64,000 nt of DNA from Onthophagus taurus (Eukaryota > Arthropoda > Insecta > Coleoptera > Scarabaeidae): NCBI RefSeq assembly GCF_036711975.1, contig NC_091970.1, positions 6,827,501 through 6,891,500 on the forward strand, written 5' to 3'. Position 1 is the stretch's first letter. Every line of letters begins with the position of its first letter. Below are positions 28,731 through 64,000 of this stretch, in pieces. A model generated the notes under the pieces. It was not told the DNA's origin, searched no databases, and was given only the letters and a program-made list of their open reading frames with translations. The position numbers and the translations under genes were made by a program.

Positions 28731-31700
28731 TTATAACGGTAAGTTATGATCATTTTCTATTTGTGACATAAGATCCATTTTCATTTTTTGATTTTTGATG
28801 TAATCATCGGAGGAAATGTCATAATGAGTATGAAGTGTAGCGGGTGTGGTTATAACTTTAAACAGATCATTTTTCAAAATGTTTTTAAGTTTGCGACTAC
28901 AATATTGATGAAAGCCCATATTTCTCGGTTCTTCTTGCGCAAAAACGAACTTAGCTTTCGGATATTTAGCGATTTCCGCTTGTATTAGATCGTAAGGGAA
29001 CGGATAGATCTGTTCGATTCTTATAAAAGTGACGTCATCTCTATTTTCTTTTTGGCGAATCGCGTCGAATTCGTAAAACACTTTCCCGCAACAAAAAACG
29101 ACCGCTTTTATTTTAGCTGGATCTTCGACCTTTTCGGTGATAATCCGTTTAAAGGTTGAGTTAGTTTTGAATTCGTCGAAATAGCTGATGTTTGCGTCGC
29201 TTGCTATTAAATTTCTAGGTAACAAATTTATTAACGGTCTTCTAAACGGCATCAAAATTTGTCTGCGAAGAACGTGGAAAAAATTCGCTGGCGTTGTTGG
29301 ATAAGTTACAATCCAATTGCATTCGAATAATTGCTTTTTGTAATCAAATTCCATCACATCATCGTTCGCGCAGAGTTGGAGAATTCGTTCTGGGCGAAAT
29401 GAACACGATGAAATCGTGGTAACGTTTCTTCCGTGAGGAAGATTTAAAACAATTCCGGACGGCTTTTTCCACTTTTCTATCCCACAAGATAAATATTCGT
29501 CAATTACAGCTTGGGGGATACCGGAAGAATCATCTTTTGCGTTCCAAACGACTAAAACGTTGGGGTCGCATTGAGAGTAACCGATTTCAAATCCTAAAAT
29601 TGCTTCTTGAGATGAAGAATGATGCTGATTTTGAATGGAAAATTTCGCTTGGGCTGGATCAACGAAATCAATTGGACTAAAAATACATAAAATGATTCAA
29701 TAATAATTTTATCTTAATAAGATAATTACGTGTAAGAAATGTTTTCCTTTTTTTGATGTTGAATAACATAATGGCGATTTTTCCACATATTTTCCTGAAT
29801 CGATCCACTCAAACGAACTTGAATTCCTGCTTTTAACAATGATCCAAAAGCAATCGCTTCTGCTAAAGACCAATTAACATTTTTCTTTTTAAGAAGTGAG
29901 GTGCGACGTTTAAAGAGGCTTTCGATTTCGCTGTGGACTACGAAGTCGCCGAGGGGTGGTGAAGAATGAATCATACCGATGGACATAATTTCGTTTTCTT
30001 CAATCCCCGTTGAAGGAATATCACCTGGTTTGTTAAAACCAGCTAATTTCGGAGTATCAATCCATGAACCAACAGCATGCGTGCCTAAATCTTTAGAAGT
30101 TTCAAAAGCCGTTTTTAAAAGCTGTTGATATTTATCCGTGTATTCCGAAATCTGTAAAATTAAAGTTTAAATTAAAAAAATTATTTGTTTAAGATTAATA
30201 TTTATTAAGGTTTCTTTTTCAATTTTTTTTTTTTAAGCAGTTCTTCGGCAAATTTTATCCGTTCACTTCGTTTCATATCTTTCAACTGTTTAATCATCCT
30301 CCTTCGCTCCAACCGATTACTTTCAGCTTTCTCGATTTCCTCAAAAGTCTCTTTAAAATCTTCTTTAATTACTTCACCGTCTTCAATATTTCCCAAAATA
30401 TCGTCTTTTTTCTTACCCACATCTTTATCTTCTCCAACTATTTTTCCAGCCGTTTTCACTCGTTTTTGGTGAGCCTGAAAAGAAGCACAAAAACGATCGT
30501 GAAAACGGCTGAAAAAAAGTTGTTTCGACGATTCTGAAAGAAATTTAAACGAAACTTAAACGTTACTTACTAAATTTTCGGTGATTACGCCTTCTTTACT
30601 CAGGCGATTAAAGTATTTTTGAACAACATCTGGTTTGCTTTTTTTGCATTTAATCTTTAGCGGGGCATTCGGGTTTAATCCCATCAAATCGTCGAATTTA
30701 ATTTCGTTGGAAGACATTAAATTAATTATGCAATCCTTTTTGAAACGATTCCTCCATTCAGATGCTATTATAGCCACTCTTTGAACAGCTTCTGGATCTT
30801 CTGCGTCAACGTGGAAAATTGGTGCATCTATCGTTTTTGCTAAATCTAAAAAACAATTTTTTTGTTGTTAACTCAAAGTTTAAAAGAAAATTAAATTCTA
30901 ATTCAAGTTATTTTGGTGAGAGACGATGAGTTACGTCACTTTATGTGAATCAACATGGATTTGATGGGGATAGCCTTGGATTTATCGCGGTGAAACAGTT
31001 TTGCGAAACACAGTGATATTTAAATCCCTTAATACAAGAGAAAGGTGCGTTAATAAAGATCTTCGCATATACGAGTAATCTCGAAACTAGGTGTTGCTAA
31101 ATCTTGTATTTTTCAACCTAATATCTATCTGTTTTGTAACATTTTTACCTCTTTAAAAGTGAAAAATTAAATTTTTTATACTGCAAGTATGTTATTAAAT
31201 GAATTAGGAGGTATCGGAAAGGACTACAGCACTGACTTTTTTGTTGTTAGTTGCATTTCAATATTTCATGTCAATTTTGCTTAGTTTAATCTTCTAAAAA
31301 TAGTAGATACTGTTCTGAAAATACTAGGAAATCATCTACAAGCAGTTTTAGTTTTCTGTTCACTATGTTAGTCTGCCATTAGGGTATATTGTCTTCTGTC
31401 AACTACATCTAGTCTTCTGTTAACACCACCTAGACTTGTTTAAGGAGTATTTAATATTTTTCCGGCAGTATTTAGTCCTTTGCAAGCACTACGTAATCTC
31501 CTGATAGCAGTAGATAGCTGCTATAAGTCTTCTATTAGCAGTTCTAGTCTCCTATTAGCAGTATATTGTCTTCTGCCAACATCTAGTCTCTTGCTAACAT
31601 TACCAAGACTTGTTTAAGGAGTATTTAATGTTCCTTCGGCAGTATCTAGTCATTTGCGAAAAGTGCTTATGCTTCTGGAAGCAGTAGGTAGTCTTTATTT

Positions 31701-34613
31701 GTATGTCAAGGGGTTAAGGAGTATTTACTATTCTTTCTAGTCGTCTGCAAGCAGTTCTCTACGCTATCATTAAGAGTATATAGTCTTCTATAAACAATAC
31801 CGGTCTTCTGTAAGCAGTATATAGTCTTTTGAAAGCAGTGCCTAATCTCTGGAAGCAGTAGATAGTCTTCTGCAAGTAGTTCTACTCTTTTATTAGCAGT
31901 TCTAGTCTGCCATTAGGAGTATATTATCTTCTATAAACAACATCTAACCTTCCACTAATACAACCTAGACTTGTTTAAGATATATTTAATATTGTTTCAG
32001 CAGTGTCTAGTCTTCTGCAAGCAGGTACTGCTCAGTTCTAGCCTTATATTAGCAGTTTAGTCTGCCATTAGGGATATATTCTTCTGTCAACAACACCTAG
32101 TTATCTGATAACGCAACCTAAACTTGTTTAAGGAGTATTTAATTATCCCTCGGCAGAATCTAGTCATCTGGGAAAAGTGCCTATGCTCCTGGAAGCTGTA
32201 GGTAGTCTTTATTTGTATGTCATGGAGTTAAGGAGTATTCACTATTCTTTCTAGTCGTCTACAAGCAGTTCTACGCTATCATTAAGAGTATGTAGTCTTC
32301 TATAAACAATACCGGTCTTCTCTAAGCAGTATATAGTCTTATGAAAGCAGTGCCTAATCTCTGGAAGCAGTAGGTAGTCTTCTGCAAGCAGTTCTAGTCT
32401 TCTATTAGCAGTTCTAGTCTCCTATTAGCAGTATATTGTCTTCTGCCAACATCTAGTCTCTTGCTAACATTACCAAGACTTGTTTAAGGAGTATTTAATG
32501 TTCCTTCGGCAGTATCTTGTCATTTGCGAAAAGTGCTTATGCTTCTGGAAGCAGTAGGTAGTCTTTATTTGTATGTCAAGAGGTTAAGGAGTATTTACTA
32601 TTCTTTCTAGTCGTCTGCAAGCAGTTCTCTACGCTATCATTAAGAGTATATAGTCTTCTATAAACAATACCGGTCTTCTGTAAGCAGTGCCTAATCTCTG
32701 GAAGCAGTAGATAGTCTTCTGCAAGCAGTTCTACTCTTTTATTAGCAGTTCTAGTCTGCCATTAGGAGTATATTGTCTTCTATAAATAACATATAACCTT
32801 CTACTAATACAACCTAGACTTGTTTAAGGTATATTTAATATTGCTTCAGCAGTGTCTAGTCTTCTGCAAGCAGGTACTTGCTCAGTTCTAGCCTTATATT
32901 AGCAGTTTTAGTCTGCCATTAGGGATATATTCTTCTGCCAACAACACCTAAGTAGACTTGTTTAAGGAGTATTTAATATTCCCTCTTTAATCATGGATAA
33001 ACTAAGTAGTAGAATATTACACAAAGTAACGCGTAATCATTAAGTGAGTAATTATGTATAAAGTAAGTAAGAATTATGTATAAATAAATAAAAATATTAC
33101 TTGAGAAGAATTGCGATTGGAATTCCAAATTGAAATTATTCAAAACAATATGAATAGTTCCTCCTGTATTAGACCCAGATGAACAGGTTAACGCGTAAAT
33201 TTCGGAACCCAAAACATCGGTGTTTTGATGAATCAAAATCGGAAGGATTTCGTTTTCCGTTTTGAACAATTGCTCAATTTTGGATCTCCCCAACGTAATG
33301 GGAGCCATGATGTTCATGTTGTTTGGCCCAACCATCATGGTTAATCTCGTTTTTTTATTCGAATTTGTATCCAATCTAAAAAGAAATAAAAAATGATTAA
33401 AAACGAAATAGTTAATAATAAAATCATGATTTACTTGACTTGATCTGTCCCTAAATAAGACGTGAAGAATTCGTTTTGATGGAGATAACCCATCAGTTTC
33501 ACCAAAGGAACTCCGAAGATGTTTGCTAAAACGTTTAATCTCCCTTTTTGTGCCATTCCAAAAACGTAATGATCAACGCCGAATGAGGAGCTGTGATCGA
33601 TTATCATTCTGATGCAGGGAATTAACATTTCGCAACCTTCCAAACTGTTTAATCCACCGGTACTTGGACAATTTGTGTTTATAAATTTTTCAAAGCTAGA
33701 AGTTAATTCATTAAATGGAATTTTTTTTTTGATATATTTTTTTGTTCATACCAAGCTGTACGGGTTAATCTTGAAAATAATAATCTTTTCTCGTCTTTCG
33801 TTAAATTGAAAATGTTGGGAGTTTCGAATTCTTTGCGTAAATAATCGCATTGAGTAAAACTATTCATGTGCATAAATTCTAACCCTATCGAGTTACAATA
33901 AGTATCTTCTAAACGATTGATGATTTCAAATAGACTCAAACGCGTTTCTTTTCCGCTTATATAAGTTGTCGGTGACGGTAATGCAAATAAATTATTCAAT
34001 TTTAATTCGGCTAAAGAGAAATTAAATTTAACTCAATGAATTTGAATAAAAAAAAATGTTTACATTTAACTTTCTTCAATAAAGTTTTATGTTCCTCTTC
34101 GGCAATCGCATTTTTTTCGCTTAAATTTGGATATAATTTGGCAAAGTAGTGTCCACGAATCTATTTTAAATTAAATCAAACGAAATAATTAAAAAAATAA
34201 ACAAATTTAATTATATCTCACTTGATAGCTTCGAATTAATTGTTGCACCAATAAAAATTGTTTCAAATTGATCTCTCTTTCATCTCGCTTTTGAACTTTT
34301 TCTTTTTTCTTAATTTTCCCGACTTCGGCCAGCGATTTCGATTTGATTTTCGTGCGATCGTAATGGGAGATTGACTTGAAAAATGAATCCCAAGGCTAAA
34401 CGGTACAAAAAAAAATTTTAATCGTGAAAAAGAAACGAATTGTTTAAAGTTGATTACAGCAGGCACGTTTTTAGGATCACTCAACCATTTTTCATAAATC
34501 GTTCGTACACCGCCGATTTCAGTTTCGCCGATAACCGTAGATCCGCTCCTGAAGAGGTCTTGATTCACTTTTTTCAATCTGCACAAGCAGTTCGCTGATC
34601 GACGGGACGTCAT
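28731..34613 (-). CDS. 2-oxoglutarate dehydrogenase E1-like protein, likely catalytically inactive
   Basis: Nine exons: 34613-34458, 34395-34222, 34160-34064, 34010-33752, 33695-33435, 33375-33101, 30845-30571, 30151-29730, 29676-28731. They total 2865 nt, coding 954 aa; family members are usually about 1000. The family decarboxylates 2-oxoglutarate with thiamine diphosphate (TPP) in mitochondria. The fold-level match is clear: YEKWLSDPKNVPAPWDSFF, LEGCEMLIP-type helix, GRLNVLAN, RLTMM, TIHIVLNN, APIFHVDAEDPEAV, LAEAIAFGSLLKAGIQVRLS, TTPANFFHVLRRQI, PKAKFVFAQEEPRNMGFHQY. However, HRGRLNV is now QKGRLNV, KYHLG is TSYLG, NPSHLE is GPNNMN, GDAA/GQG is NTDVLGSEI, RRNGHNE is SSNEIKF, and EGxGPEHSSARPER is RNVTTISSCSFRPER. 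The start is the first in-frame ATG after a stop. The N-terminus is short but has arginines (R4, R5, R12), compatible with mitochondrial import. Frames and splice sites are intact, so it is probably expressed as a pseudoenzyme paralogue. Confidence 0.9.
30205..30474 (-). other. Candidate alternative terminal exon within OGDH-like intron
   Basis: Lies inside the intron between OGDH-like exons 7 and 8. It follows an acceptor (CTTTTCAG) and is open in phase 0 relative to exon 7. It encodes 89 residues rich in Lys, Glu and Asp (e.g. RRRMIKQLKDMKRSERIKFA) before a stop that overlaps an AATAAA poly(A) signal. Including it would truncate the protein at about 588 residues with a charged, helical tail. 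It has no counterpart in the OGDH family. It could also be a nested gene or a chance open frame. Confidence 0.45.
31290..32985. repeat. Short-motif minisatellite-like repeat in intron
   Basis: The 2.26-kb OGDH-like intron 6 is filled with variants of TAGTCTTCTGCAAGCAGT, and ACTTGTTTAAGGAGTATTTA recurs at least seven times. Larger blocks are duplicated: the segment from about 31541 (GTTCTAGTCTCCTATTAGCA) recurs 870 bp later at 32411 nearly unchanged. Unlike the satellites elsewhere it has no fixed unit length. Confidence 0.8.
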
Positions 34614-48300: not shown

Positions 48301-51300
48301 TTATTAGAAAGCGGGATTAACACTGCATCATTTTTATACGCTATGTTTGGTACAGTTGTTGTTCGCGTTTGAGGAAGAAATGTGTCAACCCAATCGGGTT
48401 TATAAGTGATTCTTTTTGTTTTGTACCTAAAACAAGATTATGATTAATGATTAACACTAAAGATACTATGTGATATATTCCTTACATATAAATAGTAGCA
48501 CTCAACGTTATAAGTACTAAAAGTAACACGACGATAATTACAATTATATTATCAGATGATGCTGAATTATGAGTTGGAGACTTTCGAGTATCTTTTTTAC
48601 TGAAAATTGGTTTATCGCTATATGTTGAGCATCTTGAGTAATTTCCAAAAGAATTTTTTACGAAAATTACGATAATGCATTGTGAAGTTTCATTATTTTT
48701 TGTTAAAGTAGTTGTTTTATTGTTGTTGGGATATATTATAATCTTTTTGGTTGATTTATTTTCGAGGATGTCAAAATCGTTACAATTTTTATTAAGAGTT
48801 ATGTTGGATTTTTTATCGATGTAGTAAACGTAAATTTCGCTGGAATAAAATAATTACAAGATTATGTAATGCTTTCTAATCAGAATCCAAACCTTTTGTT
48901 GTGTACATTTTCTATTAAACTCAAATCAACAAATACATTTTCGTCAGTTTCTTTAATTAGGCCATCACGTAAAATGGGTGTTCTTGGTGGAATAATTACA
49001 ATTTCTTTTATAGACTTGGATTTTCCCGCAAAATTTGAAAATAATACCATTATTTCTTGGCGAGTAGAGCTGTAATTCAAGGCGTCTATATTGAAAGAAT
49101 AATTTCTCGTGGTACTTGGAATGTCGAAAATCGTTTCCGTGTTGTTAATGAAAATATGTAATTTACGAATTGGTCCTTTGACGTCCAAAGGATACGAACA
49201 ATTGATTGTTAAATTTAAAAAATCATCCCAAATTGTAGTTAAATCAATGGGAGATGCTGGAGCTAAAACAGAATTTATTTATTTTCTTTATCTCTGTGGT
49301 TTAAAATAAATATATTACCATTTTCTGTTGTCAATGCATCCACACTAGTACCAACGTTGGAAAATTCTTCTACGTCCTTATTTTTTGCTTTTATCTAAAA
49401 CATATCTAACTTTTTTTAAACGTTATTGAAATATCATAATTACCTTTATAGAATATTTTTCATTCATGGTTAAATTATGAAGAGTTACACAAAAATTCCT
49501 CTCCCAAATTTCACATGCTTTTGGTTTAGTTATGTTACGTTCAATCCATTCTACGCTAGCAATATTTCCAAAATCCCCTTTATCTTTTTTTTTATACTCA
49601 ATTGTGATTAATTCCAAAATGCCATTTTTTGGATAAGGTTCAGGCCATCTAATGGAAACTGATGTGTTGGTTTCCTCATAAACCCTTATTTCTCTAATTG
49701 GACGTGGAGCTATAAAAATGTATTTCTTATTTAGTAGATACCAAAGACGTTTGACAATGTTTCATACATCTCGCGTTAATAGACTAAAGCACATAAGTCA
49801 TAAAACACTGAAATTGTGTTTGTAACGCCAATGTTGATTATTTTATCTGACTTATCGTCTGACTACAGCACTCAAGTCAATATAGTCTGTTCTTGACATA
49901 ACACTATTTTGTAATTTTCTAATCGATTATATCATAACCTATCGGGAAATTCATCCCAACTAGATTCTGGATATTAGAATACTAATGAGTTTATGAGTTA
50001 TGATTGAGTTAATTTTCGATAATCAACAATTTTGATGTTTAATCGATTTACAGCTTATAAATAAAAAATGGTAATAATTGGGTTCAATCTTTTTATGGAT
50101 CTAGTCTTTATGGCCCATTACTAAGGTTTTATGTATAAAAAGTTTTTGTCCATCGCTTTTAGTTTTTGAGTTATGATTGAGTTAATTTTCGAAAATCAAC
50201 AATTTTGATGTTTAATCGATTTAGAGCTTATAAATAAAAAATAGTAATAATTGGGTTCAATCTTGTGATGGATCTAGTCTTTATGGCCCATTACTAAGGT
50301 TTTATGTATTAAAAATATTTCCCCATCGCTTTTAGTTTATGAGTTATGATTGAGTTAATTTTCGAAAATCAACAATTTTGATGTATAATCGATTTAGAAG
50401 GTATAAATAAAAAATGGTAATAATTGGGTTCAATCTTGTTACGGATTTAGTCTTTATGGCCCATTACCAGGTTTTATGTATAAAAAATATTTCCCCATTG
50501 CTTTTATTTTATGAGTTATGATTGAGTTAATTTTCGAAAATCAACAATTTTGATGTTTAATCGATTTAGAGCTTATAAATAAAAAATGGTAATAATTGGG
50601 TTCAATCTTGTTATGGATCTAGTCTTTATCGTCCATTACTAAGGTTTTATGTATAAAAAGTTTTTCTCCATCGCTTTTAGTTTATGAGTTATGATTGAGT
50701 TAATTTTCGAAAATCAACAATTTTGATGTTTAATCGATTTAGAGCTTATAAATAAAAAATGGTAATAATTGGGTTCAATCTTTTTATGGATCTAGTCTTT
50801 ATCGCCCATTACTAAAGTTTTATGTATAAAAAGTTTTTCCCCATTGCTTTTATTTTATGAGTTATGATTGAGTTAATTTTCGAAAATCAACAATTTTGAT
50901 GTATAATCGATTTAGAAGGTATAAATAAAAAATGGTAATAATTGGGTTCAATCTTGTTACGGATTTAGTCTTTATGGCCCATTACTAAGGTTTTATGTAT
51001 AAAAAATATTTCCCCATTGCTTTTATTTTATAAGTTATGATTGAGTTAATTTTCGAAAATCAACAATTTTGATGTTTAATCGATTTAGAGCTTATAAATA
51101 AAAAATGGTAATAATTGGGTTCAATCTTGTTATGGATCTAGTCTTTATCGTCCATTACTAAGGTTTTATGTATAAAAAGTTTTTCTCCATCGCTTTTAGT
51201 TTATGAGTTATGATTGAGTCAATTTTCGAAAATCAACAATTTTGATGTTTAATCGATTTAGAGCTTATAAATAAAAAATGGTAATAATTGGGTTCAATCT

Positions 51301-54300
51301 TTTTATGGATCTAGTCTTTATCGCCCATTACTAAAGTTTTATGTATAAAAAGTTTTTCCCCATTGCTTTTATTTTATGAGTTATGATTGAGTTAATTTTC
51401 GAAAATCAACAATTTTGATGTTTAATCGATTTAGAGCTTATAAATAAAATATAGTAATAATTGGGTTCAATCTTGTTATGGATCTAGTCTTTATCGTCCA
51501 TTACTAAGGTTTTATGTATAAAAAGTTTTTCTCCATCGCTTTTAGTTTTTGAGTTATGATTGAGTTAATTTTCGAAAATCAACAATTTTGATGTTTAATC
51601 GATTTAGAGCTTATAAATAAAAAATGGTAATAATTGGGTTCAATCTTGTTATGGATCTAGTCTTTATCGTCCATTACTAAGGTTTTATGTATAAAAAGTT
51701 TTTCTCCATCGCTTTTAGTTTATGAGTTATGATTGAGTTAATTTTCGAAAATCAACAATTTTGATGTTTAATCGATTTAGAGCTTATAAATAAAAAATGG
51801 TAATAATTGGGTTCAATCTTTTTATGGATCTAGTCTTTATCGCCCATTACTAAAGTTTTATGTATAAAAAGTTTTTCCCCATTGCTTTTATTTTATGAGT
51901 TATGATTGAGTTAATTTTCGAAAATCAACAATTTTGATGTATAATCGATTTAGAAGGTATAAATAAAAAATGGTAATAATTGGGTTCAATCTTGTTACGG
52001 ATTTAGTCTTTATGGCCCATTACTAAGGTTTTATGTATAAAAAATATTTCCCCATTGCTTTTATTTTATAAGTTATGATTGAGTTAATTTTCGAAAATCA
52101 ACAATTTTGATGTTTAATCGATTTAGAGCTTATAAATAAAAAATGGTAATAATTGGGTTCAATCTTGTTATGGATCTAGTCTTTATCGTCCATTACTAAG
52201 GTTTTATGTATAAAAAGTTTTTCTCCATCGCTTTTAGTTTATGAGTTATGATTGAGTCAATTTTCGAAAATCAACAATTTTGATGTTTAATCGATTTAGA
52301 GCTTATAAATAAAAAATGGTAATAATTGGGTTCAATCTTTTTATGGATCTAGTCTTTATCGCCCATTACTAAAGTTTTATGTATAAAAAGTTTTTCCCCA
52401 TTGCTTTTATTTTATGAGTTATGATTGAGTTAATTTTCGAAAATCAACAATTTTGATGTTTAATCGATTTAGAGCTTATAAATAAAATATAGTAATAATT
52501 GGGTTCAATCTTGTTATGGATCTAGTCTTTATCGTCCATTACTAAGGTTTTATGTATAAAAAGTTTTTCTCCATCGCTTTTAGTTTTTGAGTTATGATTG
52601 AGTTAATTTTCGAAAATCAACAATGTTGAAAGTGGGTAAACAGAAAGAGAGAGGAACAGGGTGAATGGAGTAATTTGGAATCTGAAAGAAACGTACTGGG
52701 AGACATATTCAGACCACGTAGACAGAGTCGACAAGAAATAAAGGAAAATCTGCGTAATAGCTGTTACTATTTTAGGCTTGTGTGCTTTAGTCTGCCGATC
52801 CGAGATATAACAAACCTATTGGTCCTGTTGTTATAGAACATATATTTTTATACAGGACATTAGTATCGTTTTCCTTCTCATAGATTCCTATATAAACTGT
52901 ATAATCAGATAGTCCGTACTCAATATCCGCTTCTACATTTGTGTCATTTACAGTTATATTAGATCTTTGTGTGCTACGTTGAGTACACCATTCATTGCTA
53001 CAATTTATCACCAAATGATAATAAAATTCAAAACTTGGCGTTTCGTTTTGTTTTAGATTAATTAATAATTTAGTGCCATTTTGTTGCAATTCACATTTAG
53101 GAAATTTTTCATTTAATTCGTTTTGTAAAGATTTAGATTTCAAATTTCTTGTTTGAGGTAAGACGTTCATGCTGACATTTTCAAGTTTCGTTTTTACTTC
53201 CATACTTGCGGTCTCTATAAACAAAATGAAAACATTAAATTATACACTGATATATCATTTATGCGGTTGTCATTACGGCAAATTCACTTTAATATTTAGA
53301 ATAAGGACCAAGTAATCTAATAAATCTCTCTCATGTTTTCTGCAGTACATACACGAGATTTTGTGGTAAACATTATCTTTAAGAATTCCTCATAAAAGGA
53401 ATGTTAACCTAATAGGATAGTATAATTCCGATTTAAAACTTCTTGAGCAATTTGGAAGAATGTGCGGGGCACCCATCATTTTGTAGCAACATAGTTAGTC
53501 TTTATTGCAATCTCTAAATTTCTAATAATATTGCTAAGTAGATATATCTTCGATAATACCACATCTATATCTATCATCATATCTAAATTGATTTAGGGAA
53601 TGAAGCCGAGGTTGCTTGCGATTGAGACGTTAATCTATCAGGGCTTGATTGTAGCACCTTGGTCGCATGTGTCAAGCGAATGCAATGCTCAATTGCATTT
53701 TATTTTTAAGGGTTGCAACGTAATGCCTCGATACCAAGCGACCTCAACTACAATCTGTCAAGATCAACAAAGAGACGAACATACTTCTATTTAGGAAAGA
53801 TCTAATTAGTCCTTCCCTTTACATGAATGCAAATAAGTTATTAGTGATTATTTGTGAAGATGCCTAGGATTTTAATTACTGACTATTAGGGTTGGTGGTA
53901 TTTATTGATGAATCTAGAAATCTACGTGTTGTTGGAGTGTGAAGCATTTCATTGCAGACAAAGGTCGAGAATGTTGAAAATCTTAAAGTTAATCTTAAAA
54001 ATTATTCGTTTTTGAGATTTTTACAGAATACTGGAAAGGAATGAGAGTTAGAGGAATAGCTTGTTGATGCTTTAGGACATTCTATACAATAAGAACAATA
54101 AATATTTTGAGTTAAAATTAACTCACCATTTATACAATTTCTAATATCGCCGATATGAGAGTAACAAGAGTCCGCTTTTAACACTACATTCAATTTTGTT
54201 TTATTTGCGATCGCGTTTAATTGTAGCTCTTCCCATTCGTTTTTCTGCAAGAAATTAATTAAAAATACAAGTTTTTTATAAATCATTTTTAGTATTTACA

Positions 54301-55434
54301 TTTTTTGGGGATTGGCTATCCAAAACATTGTCGTTTTCTCCGAGTAATTCTAAAGTAAGATTGGAATTATTACAGGTTCCAACCAAAATTGCTATACAAA
54401 TTTCTTGATTGTTTCCATTTGTTGCTACAGGAATAGTTGTATTTCCATTTGAGTTGGAGGCAAAGAGGCCATCTAAAAAAGTTATGCTAGAAAATCACAA
54501 CTTGTTTATTGTATATTTTTTTTACAAGAGAGTAGTTTCCAATTTGCAGCATTACTACTTCCAAATGCAAAGTGTGTTGGTTTAAATCCATTATGGGGGT
54601 ATGAAAAAGTGAAATTATTAGATTCTTCGGTTAGTGTAAGATTTTCTTCCTGCAATGTTAATGTGAAATTATTCCATGTTGTAAGGTCTATATTATCTGT
54701 TTTTTCATAAGGACAATCGTCTTCAGATGATATTCTAAAAATCGATGAATTTTCTTGTTGTGAAATTATAATTGTTTTTATGACGCTATTATCCCATAAA
54801 TAAATTAATATTGCACGAGGATCTCCACCGCGATGTAACACAGAAAATGAAATATTATTGTGGAATGTTTGATTAACTGCTTTGGATAAATTCGTATTGT
54901 TAGTTTTTATTGAAGGATAGTCTAAAATAACATATATATATTGTTATCAACGATTTGAATAACTTAATGAAACCTACCTTCCAATTTTCTAATTATTGGA
55001 ATGTCAACAAAATTTTGGAAATAATCGTGCTTCCATGGACTATTTAGAAAGAGCTTTCTTTTGCAGTTTTCATTAACAGATACTTTGCAAAAAACGTCGT
55101 TAATATCATTTTGATTTGTAGGTAACTGCGATTCTAATAAAAAAAAATTATCAATTCTATATATAATATAATATACCTTACCAGCCCGTTCAGGATCCAT
55201 TTGATTATTCGATATAACCATCACAGCCCTTTTTTCTGTATCAGTTAAATTACAATAATGAAACATATCGCTATTTAAATTCAAATTTTCTGATTCACCA
55301 ACCACAATAAACACAAAACTTTGAAAAAAATGGATCCATAATAAAATCAAGCAAAACACGATCCTATAATTTTTGTATTATTAGTCTAAACGCAAATTAA
55401 TTTATGTATTATTGTCTTACTTGTAGTTCTGCAT
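45360..55434 (-). CDS. Receptor-type tyrosine phosphatase A
   Basis: Seventeen exons: 55434-55421, 55363-54978, 54921-54526, 54472-54300, 54244-54127, 53214-52816, 49709-49444, 49394-49319, 49262-48893, 48839-48486, 48426-48210, 48155-48065, 48008-47932, 47882-47748, 47690-47547, 47488-47364, 45561-45360. They total 3543 nt, 1180 aa. The first 27 residues are a signal peptide (MQNYKIVFCLILLWIHFFQS). The ectodomain is Asn-glycosylation-rich; two fibronectin III-like units lie at about 495-735. One TM helix follows (IIVIIVVLLLVLITLSATIY, about 825-850), then a single phosphatase domain. Motifs: KNRYKNIIAYDKTRV, SDYINANYID, FIAAQAP, the WPD loop as HYEGWLDKDVP (W1081, P to L), active site HCSAGVGRTGT (C1113), and Q-loop MVQTFDQYVFAH. 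It should remove phosphate from protein tyrosines at the plasma membrane, though the WLD loop may lower activity. Which Drosophila receptor PTP it matches is unclear; it has the single-domain layout of Ptp10D/Ptp52F. Confidence 0.93.
45672..45822. mobile_element. Foldback element with GAGCGA hairpin centre
   Basis: In the last intron of PTP A. Inverted arms AATAGTATATTATTCAACAA.. and ..CAAGTTGAATACTATACTTT, then GTATAATGG and CCATTATAC, enclose CGAGCGAGCGAAGCGAGCGA. No protein is encoded. A related outer pair (TTTATCTACAACTATT at 45809 and AATAGTTGTAGATAAA at 46051) suggests a nested second element. Confidence 0.7.
46230..46790 (-). pseudogene. RTE-like retrotransposon relic
   Basis: Read on the - strand, the segment encodes a broken reverse-transcriptase N-terminal region: FKPRIRAFRYKQKNILNNKK, EILNRWADNFEEFLNG, then PPTKQEVRLKTTKPSKIRAA. 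After a deletion comes the typical C-terminus SKRRFVDDVEEDLRIRKVGE with VKADQGSQRVVEPKK. Stops interrupt it. It lies in PTP A's last intron. The + strand frame of 139 codons here is only its antisense. Confidence 0.7.
46787..46885 (+). repeat. Degenerate TTGGG-type simple repeat
   Basis: Imperfect run of TTGGG, TTGGT and TTGGC words, e.g. GTTGGGTTGGGCTTGG. It is located at the edge of the RTE relic, so it is most simply a retrotransposon-associated or slippage-derived repeat. Confidence 0.6.
49985..52625. repeat. Satellite array, 173-bp unit with 1038-bp higher-order repeat
   Basis: About 15 copies of a 173-bp unit marked by GAGTTATGATTGAGTTAATT. Variant GTATAATCGATTTAGAAGG occurs at 50901 and 51939, exactly 1038 bp (six units) apart. 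The surrounding units match in order, so 50550-51587 and 51588-52625 are two nearly identical six-unit blocks. The array lies in PTP A between exons 6 and 7. PTP B lacks it. Its unit resembles a half-unit of the 346-bp array at 7700-12600. Confidence 0.93.
52626..52770. pseudogene. Short retrotransposon-like relic in PTP A intron
   Basis: After the satellite, the + strand reads a fragment like ETYWETYSDHVDRVDKK, which resembles the WxxHVDRM segment near the end of RTE-type polyproteins. A related segment stands at the same place in PTP B (about 59930-60060), so it was there before the duplication. Confidence 0.4.
53215..54126. other. PTP A intron 5 with small inverted-repeat element
   Basis: Between about 53640 and 53765, GATTGTAGCACCTTGGTCGC faces GCGACCTCAACTACAATC, so arms of about 25 bases enclose about 80 bases. 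This could be a tiny MITE. The remaining intron shows nothing else. Confidence 0.45.
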
Positions 55435-57023
55435 GGTCCCACAACACTAAAATTCCAAATAATTTTACATTGTCAACGCTACTGCAAATTAACGAATTTT
55501 CCTTAACAATTTTCCTAGTTTTGCAATCAATGTTGAACACTTTCAATAATACTTTTATCAAAAAATAAACAATTTCGCGGAAATACACACAATTTTATTA
55601 TAAAGCAAATATTATCAATATACCACAGGGGTTCTTTTAATACAACACTAGCGAATATCTCAAGCACGTTACATTTGACATAAATTTTTATAAAATGATT
55701 GAAATGTAAGTTTGAGGAAAATTAAAATAATATTTTTTAATCTTAACGTTATTTTCAAGCTCGTATCAAAGTACTCTATATATTTAATTACAAAATCTGA
55801 ATTTAAAGCATTTATCATTTAAAATTTGTTTTCGATAATTAAAGTTTTAGACATCATTTATAATATAGACCTATATATACAGGGTGTCACACTAAACACT
55901 TCGCGCAAGAATTCTGTAGTTTTGGCAAATGAGTGTTTAAAGCCCTAAATAATGTTTGACGATTAGATTCATGGCTGACATTCAACTCTTTAGCCATTTT
56001 TCTGAGACAAGGACGTGCGAAACGCTATCAAGAAAATAAAGAATGTAGGGGCAGCTGGTTAGGAAATAGTACCCAAAATGGTGAAGGCAGGAGGCATGGT
56101 ATTGACCGAAGAAAATAAAGAACTATTTCGAACGATATCGAGACTTGGGCGGATACCAGCAAATTGGCAAAGAAACATAATCATTCCTATATACAGAACA
56201 ATATGGCTCATTAATATCATTGAATTGGACGATAAACACAAGATCTCATTTTCTCCCTACGCTGTAGAACTGATAAATGGATCTGCAGAATCATATCTGT
56301 ATACCTAGCTTTTTTGGATATGCACTCTGTATTTGATGAAATGCCAAGCAAGACGTCGGAAAGCACTAGAGAAGAAAAGGACTCCCTACAATTAATACAG
56401 GCCATCAAGTCCATGTTCCAGCTGAGTGAAGGGAGTTGTGAGGCTTAACCGGAAGATCTCTAGCATGTTTATGATGGAAAAAGGACAGTTTATCCCCATT
56501 GCTCTTTGTAGTTTTTATGGATGATGTGGTGAAGACATGTTTAACCTCAAACCGATCATGTGCCAGGCTCTGATATATGCAGATGATGTAGTCCTCATCG
56601 CAGACTCGCAGAGGAAATTGCAACAAGCTATACTCGAGTGGTCAGATATTTTAAAGGAGAGGGGCATGATGTTGAATAAAATGAAGAGTCATGTTAATGA
56701 CTCGTCATGTCAAAGAGTCTATACTTACCTGTGGCAGTGAAAGCTGGATCGCAAATAAAAGGGACTTAGTCGAATTCGAGAAGAGCTCAATATGCAGCCG
56801 GTCGAAAAGATGATTGAGGTTAGACAGCTCTCTTGGTTTGGCCACGTCAGACGAATGGGACAGAATGATATGGAAAGAGACAGTGACGCAGATTGCGGCC
56901 AATCGAGGGAAAACTATGTATCAGTTCTTTTTATTTATAATTAATTTATTAACTAACATAGATATTACATCTTAGATATTCTATATAATTTAATCTACGC
57001 ATAACAAATAATTATTACAATAA
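55435..57023. other. Intergenic region between PTP A and PTP B
   Basis: About 1.6 kb separates the start of gene A from the end of gene B. It holds A's promoter (no clear TATA box could be assigned), an AT-rich stretch, and the RTE relic annotated separately. Confidence 0.5.
56030..56930 (+). pseudogene. RTE-like retrotransposon relic
   Basis: The + strand, across several frames, shows an ordered but broken reverse transcriptase: MVKAGGMVLTEENKELFRTI, GRIPANWQRNIIIPIYR, then the catalytic-box region ALIYADDVVLIADSQRKLQQ, and finally the C-terminus VEKMIEVRQLSWFGHVRRM. Frameshifts, stops and deletions between these blocks show it is inactive. Confidence 0.8.
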
Positions 57024-60000
57024 TTATACAGTAACAGGAAAAGTATAAATTGGATCCGATAAAGTGGCTAAAACTTGATGGGCCAAAACGTACTGAGCGT
57101 AAGTTTGTACCATTTTGGGTCGTTGTTGTCTCAAATAGTAAAAAATTGAAAACATGTCTATCGTTTTGGCCTTTTCGGCCATTGTTGCGGCGATGTTTGA
57201 GAGAATTATTATCCCAGTTCGGCCAATACCATCACTAAATAAACCCAAATTTTATTTGTAAGGTTGATAGTATTATTTATTAGAAGTCGCAATTTCATAC
57301 CTGCAATGAACTAGCGTTGGATTGCGGTTTCCGTGATTTTTCATTAAATGCAAAATGTTTATAACAGTTTCAATTGTTAATTCGTCTTGCCTGAATTTTC
57401 CTGAATAATGAATTTGAACTAACTAAAATTAAAAAAGTTATATTTAAAACCACTTTTTAGTATAAAGAAATACTTTTCTATTTGAAGAATTTGAGGATAT
57501 TTCAAAAGTTCTGATTATTATATCAGAAGTGGTGTTACTATTAATACATGCAATGGTGATTCCGCTGTATTCTAAACTTTTCTTCAATTCTGGCCAATAT
57601 TTAGCATATTTCTCCTGTGAGTTAAAAATGATATTAATGAATATTTTAATTTTTTTTTTATTTATTACCTTTTCGGATTCGTTTAAATTAGTTAACGCTA
57701 CGATGCATTCAACATTCTCATCCCAAATCATCTTCCAAAAGTTTCTTATGCTGGATTTTATTGGAGATTGAGCGGCAATAAAAAGTTGGTCTTCATTAAA
57801 ACCCTCGAATAAAAACGAAATTATTTACACCTAATTTTTAATGCTATTTTAATTCTTACATTAATGTAATTAGGGTTAATGTAATCTTTTGCGGTGGAAT
57901 CGAGATGATTCACTAATCTAGTCCCTGTGCCATCATCTATGAACATCAAATCGATCAAATCGTTGATTAAAAATAGATTTAATTTCAACTTACAGGATAT
58001 GTTATGTTTTCTCATTGTGTCGCTATCTAATTCCAATTTGGTATCCAATTTTTCGACCATCTGTATAGACAAAAATTAGGTTAATATAAAAAAATTGTTA
58101 TTTGTCTTACGTTGAATTGTTGAAGAAGTTTACCATCCCTTATTGCGTTATCTACGTAATTTATAAAGTTTTCTATTTCAACCGCATGACAGAATTTATT
58201 TATACTTGATTTACAAGTAATTCTTTTTATCTTGTACCTTAAAAAAATCTAATTGAGGTTTACTTAGTACTGATATTTTTATGACTCGCGACTGCCAAGG
58301 AATTTAATCGCATTTTTGTTTTAGAATTTGCGATTAAAGTTATGTCTCGAGTTATAGAAATATCCTGCATAGAAATGTCATCAATTTACATATAAATAGT
58401 TACTCCCAAGATGATGAGTAACAGAATCAATACAATGATAATAATTATTAAATTGTCAGATTGTGCTGAAGGAATGTTTGGTGTATTTGGAGTATCTTTT
58501 TTACTAAAAATTGGTTCAACCCTATATGTTGAGCATCTTGAGTACTTTTCAAAAGAATTTTTTACGAAAATTACGATAATGCATTGTGAAGTTTCCTTAT
58601 TTTTTGTTAAAGTAGTTGTTTTATTGTTGTTGGGATATATTGTAATCTTTTTGGTTGATTTATTTTCCAAAATGTCAAAATCGTTACAATTTTTATTAAG
58701 AGCTGTGTTGGATTTTTTATTGATGTAGTAAACGTAAATTTTGCTGGAATAAAATAATTACAAGATTATGTAATGCTTTCTAATCAGAATCCAAACCTTT
58801 TGTTGTGTACATTTTCTATTAAGCTCAAATCAACAAATACATTTTCGTCAGTTTCTTTAATTAGGCCATCACGTAAAATGGGTGTTCTTGGTGGAATAAT
58901 TACAATTTCTTTTATAGACTTGGATTTTCCCGCAAAATTTGAAAATAATACCATTATTTCTTGGCGAGTAGAACTGTAATTTGAGGCGTCTATATTGAAA
59001 GAATAATTTCTCGTGTTATTTGGAATGTCAAAAATCATTTCCGTGTTGTTAATGGAAATATTTAATTTACGAATTGGTCCTTTGGCGTTCAAAGGATACG
59101 AACAATTGATTGTTAAATTTAAAAAATCATCCCAAATTGTAGCTATTTTAATGGGAGATGCTGGAGCTAAAACAGTATTTATTTTCTTTATCTCTGTGCT
59201 TTAAAATAAATAAATTACGTTTTTCTGTTGTGATTGCAAATACAGCAGTACCAGCTTTGGAAAATTCTTCTACGTCCTTATTTTTTGCTTTTATCTAAAA
59301 TATATGCAAATTTCTTGAAACGTTATTGAAAGATCATAATTACCTGTATATAATATATTTCATTCATAGTTAAATTATGAAGAGTTACACAAAAATTCCT
59401 CTCCCAAATTTCACATGCTTTTGGTTTGGTTATGTTACGTTCAATCCATTCTACGCTAGCAATATTTCCAAAATCCCAATATTTATCTCTTTTTTTATAC
59501 TCAATTGTGGTTAATTCCAAAATGCCATTTTTTGGATAAGGTTCAGGCCATCTAATGGAAACTGATGTGTTGGTTTCCTCATAAACCTTTATTTCTCTAA
59601 TTGGACGTGGAGCTATAAAAATGTATTTCTTATTTAGTAGATACCAAAGACGTTTGACAATGTTTCATACATCTCGCGTTAATAGACTAAAACACATAAG
59701 TCATAAAACACTGAAATTGTCTGACTACAGCACTCAAGTCAATATAGTCTGTTTCTGACATAACACGATTCTGTAATTTTCTAATCGATTATATCATAAC
59801 CAGTAGGGAGATCATCCCAGCCAGATTCTGGATATTAGAACACTAATGTCCGGAAACGCGACTTAGTTCTATGCAAATACCGATTTAAGCCCAACCTTCA
59901 AAACATAAAGAAACCAATCCATAAAGAGAATATCAGAACAGACTAAGGAAAAAGCCAACTGAGGGTGCTTGATGTAGAGCAATTTGTGTGGGCAAGGCGC

Positions 60001-60863
60001 AGATGTTGGCATAGACAGAATCGACAACAAATAAAGGAAAAGCTGCATAATATATTATCCTGTTACTAATTTAGGCTTGTGTGCTTTAGTCTGCCGATAC
60101 GAGATATAACAAACCTATTGGTCCTGCTGTTATAGCACATATATTTTTATGCTGGACAATAATATCCTTATTCCAACTGATTCCTAAATCAACTGTATAG
60201 TTAGATAGTCCACACCAAATAGACACATCATTCATAAAATTTTTGTCATTTACAGTTTTAACTATGTGTGTAATGTGTACTGCGTGTGCACACCCTTCAT
60301 TGCTACCATTTATCACCAAATGATAATAAAATTCACAATTTCCTGTTTGTATTCGTTTTAGATTAATTAATAATTTAGTGTCATTTTGTTGTAAGTCACA
60401 TTTAGGAACTTCTTTATTTAAATCGATTTGTAAACATTTAGATTTCAAATTTCTTGTTTGATGTAAGGCTTTCATGTTAACATTTTCAAGTTTCTTTTTT
60501 ACTTCCATATTTGCGGTCTCTACAAAAGAAAAATATTAAATTATATACCGATATATCATTTATACGGTTTTCATTTCTGCTTTGATCGTTCATGTTGACA
60601 TTTTTACGCTTCGAATTTATAATATGAAATTCTATGCCATCTAATTTAGGATCCAGTAAAGAAAGAGGGTTTTTTTTATTCCAAAGATCAAACATACCGT
60701 TAATTGAAATCAAATTTTGTGGTTCACCAACCACAACGACACTAAAACTTCGAAAAAAATTGATCCATAATAAAATCAAGCAAAACACAATCCTAAAATA
60801 TATGTATTATTAGTCTAAACGCAAATTAATATATTTATTATTCTCTTACTTGCAGTTCTGCAT
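57024..60863 (-). CDS. Receptor-type tyrosine phosphatase B, probable pseudophosphatase
   Basis: Fourteen exons: 60863-60850, 60792-60566, 60519-60115, 59612-59344, 59294-59219, 59166-58797, 58743-58390, 58237-58111, 58060-57994, 57936-57860, 57803-57669, 57614-57474, 57422-57301, 57234-57024. They total 2595 nt, 864 aa. It is a tandem paralogue of gene A. Signal peptide (MQNCKIVFCLILLWINFFRS), fibronectin III-like units and TM helix (LIIIIIVLILLLIILGVTIY) are kept. Counterparts of A's exons 3-5 are absent and exon 2 is shorter. In the phosphatase domain, KNRY is MRKHN, the whole GWPDxxVP loop is GKFRQDEL, and the active site is HCSDGIGRTG (C about residue 794; A to D). The juxtamembrane exon is 90 nt shorter. 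The frame is open and all splice sites are consensus, so it looks like an expressed, catalytically crippled receptor that may bind ligands or substrates rather than dephosphorylate. Confidence 0.9.
59613..60114. other. PTP B intron, satellite-free equivalent of the A intron
   Basis: The first 230 bases match A's 49710-49985 (GTAGATACCAAAGACGTTTG, TCTCGCGTTAATAGACTAAA). The last 100 match A's 52700-52815. Between them, where A has the satellite, B has unrelated sequence plus a decayed retrotransposon-like piece (LRVLDVEQFVWARRRCWHRQ). Confidence 0.7.
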
Positions 60864-61854: not shown

Positions 61855-63153
61855 TTAATTATTTTCTTGTACTCTATGAAGCACGGCAAAACAAGAATAC
61901 GATGTCCTAAGAATCTGAAACATCCAAAGACAATTTAACAATTAATTCCACAAAAAAAATTATACCGAAGTAAAATTTTCAACTGATAAGGTAACCAATC
62001 CAGCTGCGTATAATTTAACTGGAACTCTGGTTCTCATCATTACAAATAAAAGGTTTTTTTTAAATTGTTGCGAGCAATCCGTCCAATCGCTTTTAAAAGC
62101 CGATAACGGTATCAACCCACTCTTTAACATAATTTCATTTCCGTACCAACAATAAAGAAAAGCTTGTATTAAAATACAAAGTTGGTACATAATCATTGAC
62201 ATGAATTGAATTCCCCCAATTTGAACGCTCGTTGATTTAAACATTGACATACACATAGTTAAAACAGTAATACCAACTTGAACAAAGACGACTACGCTGA
62301 ACAGATTAAAGAATTTTTGAATCATGCTTAAAATCAATAAATGATGTCGAACGATCCTTTCTAATTCAAGATCCATTTTGGTTTGAAGATTTTTATCGTG
62401 GTCGTTATCGTTTTCGCATCGCCTTTTAATATGTTCTAATGAGTCGTTTAATAAATCGAATTGGTTGCAAAAAAATCTCATAAAACTCGCAACCGTCGCA
62501 TCGATGTTAATGTTTAGTATCGCAGAAATAGTAACTAAGATAATTTGAAAACACAGGATTATTTGAAGCGTCGGGTAACGATCTACGTCGAAAGGATACC
62601 ACCCCCGAAGAGGTAAAGAAATATTTTCGCCTTGTTTTCGTTCCAAAAATGGCAAAACTGCCCATAACACACACGTCGCAATCCCGGTAAATTGAAAAAT
62701 TGCATAAACAATCTTGTATCTCTTAATGGAAGTTTTCATTAATTCTTGTTGCTCGTGGTATCGAGGCATGAAAAGTTCGTCGTCCATTTCGTTTAGAAAT
62801 TTTTTAATATCCTTTTGTTGTATAAGAAACACGCGAATTTTTATCATTTGTACTGCGTGAGTAAAAAATAAAAAGAGACAACTCGTAAGTTCTTCTAGAT
62901 CATCCAAGACGTGAAAAATGTAAATAATCTCTGAAATCGAATACAAAACGAGCGTACTCAGCAAAAATAAAACAGAATAACAAGTGTAGAGCTTTTGGGT
63001 TGTTCGATTTTCAGTTTCAGGCCACCAACATCCGCCCAATTTCAAAAGAATTATGTTTAGATACAAAGAATTTCTTAATTTTAACCGATCCCATTCTAAA
63101 ATCATCTTGAAATTGTGATACTTGGAAATGATTTGAGACAATTTGAATTTCAC
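61855..63153 (-). CDS. Odorant receptor, insect 7tm_6 family
   Basis: Two exons, 63153-61966 and 61914-61855, total 1248 nt, 415 aa, normal for the family. The large first exon holds six or seven hydrophobic helices, e.g. LYTCYSVLFLLSTLVLYSIS and PTLQIILCFQIILVTISAIL. It ends in the conserved C-terminal region VPVKLYAAGLVTLSVENFTS. The short last exon encodes ILRTSYSCFAVLHRVQENN, the family's hallmark ending (F.xI+R.SYSxFxVL). Insect ORs form ligand-gated cation channels with Orco in olfactory neurons, with inverted topology. It lacks Orco's long conserved loop, so it is a ligand-tuning subunit. The open frame continues two codons past the donor to a stop, so an unspliced reading would miss the last exon. 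Frame is intact. Confidence 0.95.
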
Positions 63154-64000
63154 GTTGCTTATTTATAAGAGAATTTAGTGTAATTAGATTCTAATAAGGT
63201 ACTTCTCGAAACGGGTTGTTTAGGATAATAACGTAATTGGAGGGGATTGAAACGTGTAATTTTCTTTTGTTGGAGATTAAATCGTTATGTTTCTTCTAAC
63301 GAAATCACGCCCAGAAAATTATATCAACTCAAATAATAGGTGTGTTTAAATTTTTTTAAAGATACTTATTACAAAAAATAGAAAAAAAGTAAAAATATAC
63401 AGAAAATTTTTTAGTTCTTTCTGAAAAATTATTTTGATGATATTTGAAAGAAGATTGTAAAGAAAACAGAAAGATGGCAGAAAAATTCAGAATGAAGAAA
63501 TTAAAGAGAACTTACAAAGCAACCAATAAAATAGAAATATTACAAATCAAAAAGGAAACAAACACAAAAGCATAACCCCAGACAATTTTGGCTATCAAAT
63601 GCCTAATATCTTAGCAACCCAACCTTACCTTTATCTTTCCAAAATGTTATTTCAAAAACCACATCATCTTGAGTGATTGCAGTGTTTCGTGAATGATGAT
63701 TCAGTTATCAGATGCAGTTTGCAAATTAGAGACTTCCAAAAATTTCCATAATGGTTACGACTCGAAGTTAGTACACGACTCCAATGTCCATTTGATGATT
63801 CCAGTATGGGTTGTTACGAGAAGCATTCATAAGGATTCGTTTCAGTATACTGAGGTTGATGCAGCATAAGTCCAGACAATTTTGGCTATCACATGCCTAA
63901 TTTCTTACCAACCCAACCATACTTTTATCTTTCCAAAATATCATTTCAAAAACCACATCATAACAGGAGATCTTCTCGGATTGCTATTAACTGCAAAGTT
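63154..64000. other. Region upstream of the odorant receptor with direct repeat
   Basis: Holds the OR promoter. A block of about 100 bases, beginning GACAATTTTGGCTATCA and running through ACCCAACC...CTTTATCTTTCCAAAAT to AAAACCACATCAT, is at 63579 and again at 63875, about 295 bp apart. It may be the start of another tandem array leaving the window. Confidence 0.6.

Follow-up and report, generated by a model that had tools for sequence, protein, structure and literature searches.

An intact OGDH duplicate in Onthophagus taurus with a dismantled E1 active site

The window analysed here is a 64,000-nucleotide stretch of the beetle Onthophagus taurus (contig NC_091970.1, positions 6,827,501 to 6,891,500; C5 of the 291-Mb assembly, G000 in our numbering), and positions refer to it unless another contig is named. 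Between 34613 and 28731, on the minus strand, it carries an intron-retaining, strongly diverged duplicate of mitochondrial 2-oxoglutarate dehydrogenase (OGDH; the E1 component of the complex, E1o) with an intact reading frame. The encoded protein retains almost none of the residues on which E1 catalysis depends, and the genome holds a separate canonical OGDH on contig C6. We are highly confident that the gene goes back to an ancient duplication at the DNA level and has since become a pseudoenzyme under selection. With moderate confidence we further propose that the protein is maintained as a non-catalytic E1-type subunit, most likely in male-germline mitochondria.

Loss of the active site

We compared the window protein with E1 enzymes at residues of published function, which are given here in DHTKD1 numbering as they appear in PMC7340257 and PMC9367764; the substrate contacts in the latter derive from docking. 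Asp333, Asn366, His435, Glu640 and His708 were placed by their spacing, which human OGDH shares (68 residues from Glu640 to His708, 31 from Asp677 to His708, 69 from Asn366 to His435 and 33 from Asp333 to Asn366). Leu290 was placed by its spacing of 43 from Asp333 in human DHTKD1 as numbered. Gly369, Phe370, Asn436 and Glu707 each lie at most four residues from a residue placed in this way, and for Lys188, Phe190 and Tyr263 the motif alone gave the position. The underlying alignment contains 84 sequences, namely the window protein, the OGDH of contig C6, human OGDH, Escherichia coli SucA and 80 bacterial relatives, and 185 of its columns are near-invariant once the window protein is set aside. 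The window protein retains 99 of these 185 residues, and the losses concentrate on the active site: just one of the 13 published catalytic residues is kept (Asn366), against 98 of the 172 other near-invariant residues (Fisher p = 7e-4). The difference persists when the three motif-placed residues are moved out of the catalytic set (1/10 against 98/175, p = 0.006). Ile368, which is deleted in the window protein, was left outside the 13, SucA having Val there. A test on whole motif windows points the same way (25 of 79 invariant columns retained, against 132 of 219 elsewhere, p 1e-5), with blocks picked in part because the initial annotation had seen them changed; the test on published residues avoids most of that circularity.

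In the pair that binds thiamine diphosphate (ThDP) and Mg, Asp333 has become Asn while Asn366 is retained. The proton-relay glutamate (Glu640) and one active-site histidine (His708) are replaced (Table 1), as are the second active-site histidine, His435 (Phe), and Glu707 (Ser), Asn436 (Asp), Leu290 (Met), Lys188 (Gly) and Phe190 (Leu). Tyr263 is replaced or deleted, and loop 1, with Gly369 and Phe370, is missing. The alignment is locally loose around His435/Asn436 and around Tyr263, which faces a Ser in one alignment and a gap in another, and neither of the two restores the residue. The motif changes named in the initial annotation are all present: HRGRLN reads QKGRLN, KYHLG reads TSYLG, NPSHLE reads GPNNMN, EHSSxRPER reads SSCSFRPER, and the position of RRNGHNEMDEP is taken by a histidine-free stretch, with no histidine anywhere between residues 440 and 480. 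Two motifs are also shortened by deletion, HGDAAxxGQG to HQNTDVLGS and NNQIGFTT to NNF. Since nearly all ThDP/Mg2+, cofactor-activating, substrate and lipoyl residues are gone, the window protein, judged by its residues, cannot be a 2-oxoglutarate dehydrogenase by the known mechanism. A different, ThDP-independent enzymatic activity is conceivable from the sequence; with several of the stretches that form the pocket deleted, we regard it as very improbable.

The dimer axis tells a different story from the pocket. All three members of the salt-bridge network found there (Asp677, Arg712 and Arg715) are retained, and the fold predicted for the part encoded by exon 9, the part that the model covers, agrees with that of canonical OGDH when an alignment of 33 relatives is used. 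With the salt bridge and the C-terminal domain retained, the window protein probably folds and dimerises like E1o. Each ThDP site of an E1 dimer takes one half from each subunit, according to PMC7340257. Because the site is built by two subunits and both halves are dead in the window protein (Asp333 and loop 1 on one side, Glu640 and His708 on the other), a mixed dimer with canonical OGDH would be left without a working site. The window protein could on these grounds be an inhibitory partner, an off switch acting through mixed dimers, and the retained salt bridge fits that idea. We nevertheless consider it unlikely, since the two prospective partners are only 38.5% identical and the salt bridge is the sole interface feature compared.

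Descent and selection

The protein belongs to the OGDH lineage by descent. Its best solved relatives are two human OGDH entries, 8i0k (E 2e-167) and 7wgr (E 2.1e-166), with bit scores of 562 and 559; E. coli SucA scores 371 bits and human DHTKD1 297 (E 3.4e-87). Four E1o Pfam domains are found above their cut-offs: PF16078, PF00676, PF02779 and PF16870. Canonical OGDH, represented by human 7wgr and the C6 gene, shares with the window protein these domains, clade, introns, salt bridge and predicted exon-9 fold, but differs at all save one of the 13 catalytic residues and through much of the sequence. Identity is 38.5% with C6 OGDH (930 columns), 37.6% with human OGDH (806) and 31.6% with SucA (822), whereas the C6 and human enzymes are 65.4% identical (844 columns).

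A tree of six sequences over 539 columns places the window protein inside the OGDH clade, and placement in the DHTKD1 or SucA lineage is rejected (approximately unbiased test, p about 0.001). DHTKD1, the E1 of 2-oxoadipate dehydrogenase, is a related family of the same fold, and the window gene is rejected as an orthologue of it. Grouping with human OGDH alone is also rejected (p 0.029), and a sister relationship to C6 OGDH is allowed (p 0.12). The best tree puts the window protein outside the C6 and human sequences together (p 0.92, support 89), a placement that its long branch could cause; that branch measures 1.11 substitutions per site, and the branch of C6 OGDH 0.17. At sites where the C6 and human proteins differ, the window protein shares the C6 state at 67 and the human state at 49 (p 0.11), and polarised shared states favour the C6 gene over human OGDH by 15 to 6 (p 0.08). 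These states lean weakly to the C6 gene, and a duplication on the insect side is likely from them, though not proved. Intron positions bear on the mode of duplication. Five of the eight introns coincide exactly with C6 introns, both in phase and in alignment column. Another shares the C6 phase but is displaced by five columns where the alignment has gaps. The remaining two are peculiar to the window gene, which in turn lacks two introns found near the 3' end of the C6 gene. The introns in common indicate that the gene arose by DNA duplication rather than retroposition, and the five exact matches rule out a processed copy.

A whole-genome search with the window protein matched 17 stretches at four places, namely the window gene itself, the C6 gene, a gene on C7 and a fragment on C1. 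Its scores cover the best candidates, and further, very diverged copies could remain. Across the 14 E1-family loci compared, matches to the window protein fall only at the places on C6, C1 and C7 (29.78 Mb). Loci L014 to L016 together make up the C6 gene, which is the canonical OGDH, with HRGRLN, KYHLG, NPSHLE, HGDAAFCGQG, NNQIGFTT, RRNGHNENDEP, EAQFGDF and EHSSCRPER all in place; the possibility that the window gene is the sole OGDH of the genome, raised in the initial annotation, is thereby ruled out. The C7 gene is a separate DHTKD1 with GDAA, NNQVGY, GHNE, EAQFGDF and EHSS intact. On C1 (8569775-8571962, L012) lies a SucA-like fragment with several in-frame stops, which looks like a decayed copy of bacterial type. 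The canonical OGDH has two candidate last exons on the minus strand of L015, at about 7984 and 6821, with differing C-terminal tails (YIGRPVAPSPATG... and IARPARAAPATG...). A gene resembling pyruvate dehydrogenase E1-alpha is present at C7:7718632-7719877 (L003, L004); it has at least two exons and retains intact GDGAANQGQ and YHGHSMSDPG motifs. The telomere pattern TCAGG was searched for and gave 0 matches.

The silent sites that separate the window gene from C6 OGDH are randomised: among 98 codons at which both genes encode the same fourfold-degenerate amino acid, the third base is equal in 27 (0.28), against 0.27 expected by chance. Over the same divergence the frame has stayed perfect. Stops, frameshifts and broken splice sites were looked for across the nine exons, and none was found. 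We simulated neutral decay starting from a 906-codon core of canonical OGDH (F81, no indels, 100 runs per setting), and decay to 38-42% protein identity produced means of 38 to 53 stops under three base compositions. Dozens of stops are therefore expected and none is seen, which rules out neutral decay and agrees with the argument of the initial annotation that a decaying copy would not have kept its frame. Assembly error is rejected as the source of the changes, since they extend over exons 5 to 9 with the frame intact. Because the catalytic changes are numerous and include deletions, we consider them old, with the frame maintained ever since. A pseudogene long constrained as an enzyme and released only recently would account for the fast branch and for the looser constraint outside the active site, but the catalytic losses are near complete, include deletions and are probably old, unselected decay carried this far would have left dozens of stops, and every splice site is intact; we think this highly improbable. 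The randomised silent sites beside a perfect frame, the presence of C6 OGDH and the concentration of losses at catalytic residues are together strong sequence evidence, though not a branch dN/dS, for selection on the window protein after catalysis was lost, and support the non-catalytic role first suggested in the initial annotation.

Gene features and neighbouring sequence

The coordinates of the gene and of its main residues are given in Table 1. Under standard splice rules the nine exons yield 954 codons and one terminal stop, in agreement with the 955 codons first counted, and all eight introns are GT...AG. In order, the introns measure 62, 61, 53, 56, 59, 2255, 419 and 53 bases. GC content is 0.37 in the coding sequence and 0.13-0.24 in the six short introns. 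The first 24 residues of the protein include six Lys or Arg and one Asp or Glu.

Table 1. Features of the OGDH-like gene in window coordinates. Residue equivalents follow DHTKD1 numbering; residue roles are from PMC7340257.
Feature	Position	Strand	Remarks
Exon 1	34458..34613	-	Basic, presequence-like start; first part of the 2-oxogl_dehyd_N motif (PF16078)
Exon 2	34222..34395	-	Both flanking junctions match canonical OGDH introns, phase 0
Exon 3	34064..34160	-	
Exon 4	33752..34010	-	
Exon 5	33435..33695	-	HRGRLN to QKGRLN; region-1 Lys and Phe and KYHLG replaced
Exon 6	33101..33375	-	NPSHLE, GDAA-GQG and NNQxGF blocks altered or deleted
Codon 367, AAC (Asn)	33222..33224	-	Replaces the ThDP/Mg aspartate Asp333
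Intron 6	30846..33100	-	2255 bases, mostly degenerate tandem repeats
Exon 7	30571..30845	-	Loop 2; codon 458 (30694-30696) is Phe opposite His435
Open frame in intron 7	30208..30474	-	Lys/Glu-rich; phase 0 after exon 7; TAA overlapping AATAAA
Exon 8	29730..30151	-	Gap-free alignment over the exon 7/8 junction
Exon 9	28731..29676	-	Alpha/beta-2 and C-terminal domains; stop at 28731-28733
Codon 663, CAA (Gln)	29607..29609	-	Replaces the proton-relay glutamate Glu640, by alignment
Asp699	29499..29501	-	Retained salt-bridge partner, equivalent to Asp677
Codon 730, TCG (Ser)	29406..29408	-	Replaces the active-site histidine His708, by alignment
Arg734	29394..29396	-	Retained salt-bridge partner, equivalent to Arg712
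Codon 737 (Arg)	29385..29387	-	Retained salt-bridge Arg715, by alignment

Intron 6 stands apart from the other introns, which are 53-62 or 419 bases long. Its repeats fall into families of 300, 206, 135 and 69 bases with copies 67-98% alike, and a comparison of the repeat sequence with phages gave no match. Intron 7 contains an open frame that spans 116 codons in full, and an equally long open stretch arose in 2 of 2000 shuffles. Like the change at Glu640, this frame adds to what the initial annotation had pointed out. GC content by codon position is 0.49, 0.24 and 0.29. The frame may be an alternative terminal exon, which from its sequence would produce a shorter, charged isoform; since the nine-exon model aligns without gaps to canonical OGDH at this place, both the long and the alternative form are possible. 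Counting against an alternative exon, the opposite strand is also open, over 112 codons, and base composition in this region may simply favour open frames. The frame gave a single match in the genome search and no Pfam family above cut-off.

Elsewhere in the window, two tandem near-copies of a fibronectin type III gene with an asparagine-rich ectodomain (the domain was seen in the one copy scanned) occupy 48482-60535 on the minus strand. An odorant receptor with a single open frame of 400 codons follows at 61960-63162 on the same strand; it carries 7tm_6 (PF02949), the receptors of which are an insect family. A fibroblast growth factor (FGF) gene is also present.

Possible roles

The surfaces by which an E1 joins its complex may in part be retained. 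The 2-oxogl_dehyd_N profile (PF16078) matches the N-terminal region at 29.2 bits against a cut-off of 27, and the corresponding region of human OGDH is reported to hold two DLST-binding motifs (PMC7340257). The same source gives DHTKD1 p.R715C as a substitution that weakens DLST binding, and the window protein retains this arginine. From the profile match we predict that this N-terminal motif may still allow the window protein to dock on DLST. A dead E1 filling E1 sites on DLST could act as a scaffold or decoy that shifts the composition of the complex during assembly, with no tie to the germ line. Both the motif and the retained Arg715 would suit such a function, but the PF16078 score is barely above its cut-off, and we rate it as improbable, somewhat more so than the inhibitory partner.

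We favour the explanation that the window protein is a non-catalytic E1-type subunit maintained by purifying selection. Its most likely role lies in the mitochondria of the male germ line (sperm), as an abundant protein with a structural or assembly function. Granted a selected pseudoenzyme, we judge the chances of a male-germline role to be evenly balanced, by analogy with two systems. The first is Drosophila Ogdh2, which we take to be CG33791 in FlyBase numbering. Compared by description, it resembles the window gene as an extra insect OGDH-type paralogue beside a ubiquitous one. The existence of such a paralogue in Drosophila, mentioned in the initial annotation, is confirmed in PMC11089389, where the OGDH E1 has two genes and Ogdh2 is testis-specific. 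CG33791 ranks among the 20 most abundant proteins of Drosophila sperm, a group that also includes S-Laps, Bb8 and aconitase 2 (PMC9494239).

The second system is the S-Laps themselves, sperm leucyl-aminopeptidases from a metabolic-enzyme family that have lost catalysis and are still kept; the window protein would be their equivalent in the OGDH family. The S-Laps are M17 peptidases reported as sperm structural proteins (PMC6388916), whereas the window gene is known from its sequence. As in the S-Laps, residues that are catalytic throughout the family are lost in the window gene and the frame is kept. The same genome also contains, at C1:40327006-40327950 (L118), an M17 leucyl-aminopeptidase in which TTDCAGRL and TYNSGG replace the NTDAEGRL and TFDAGG of a canonical-looking one (L117). 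Two of the changed residues are presumably metal ligands, and L118 is a candidate S-Lap-type pseudoenzyme. A more specific version of the germ-line proposal, in which a dead pseudo-E1 still dimerises and docks in the male germ line and serves either as bulk sperm-mitochondrial structure or as an off switch that poisons both active sites of mixed dimers, is tentative, and we place it slightly below an even chance.

Several points weigh against a selected, germ-line pseudo-E1. The germ-line role is proposed by analogy. Constraint has loosened everywhere, with 74 of the 172 non-catalytic near-invariant residues changed as well. The NG86 estimates against C6 OGDH (dN 0.60, dS 2.61, for nonsynonymous and synonymous sites) are taken against a distant paralogue at saturated dS, and their ratio averages both branches. 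A fold model of exon 9 from the single sequence is confident to some degree only at about residues 181-270 of that part, with a mean predicted local distance difference test (pLDDT) score of 46.0 overall.

The fold and the family are known. Neither a dead, selected OGDH E1 nor an insect 2-oxoglutarate dehydrogenase pseudoenzyme turned up in the open-licence papers searched, a collection outside which most subscription papers fall. Automatic annotation by homology would name the window gene 2-oxoglutarate dehydrogenase, a name that its residues contradict. If the proposal is correct, the recruitment of dead metabolic enzymes to insect sperm, known from the S-Laps, would extend to an E1 of the tricarboxylic acid cycle, and the presence of non-catalytic subunits within OGDH complexes would become testable.
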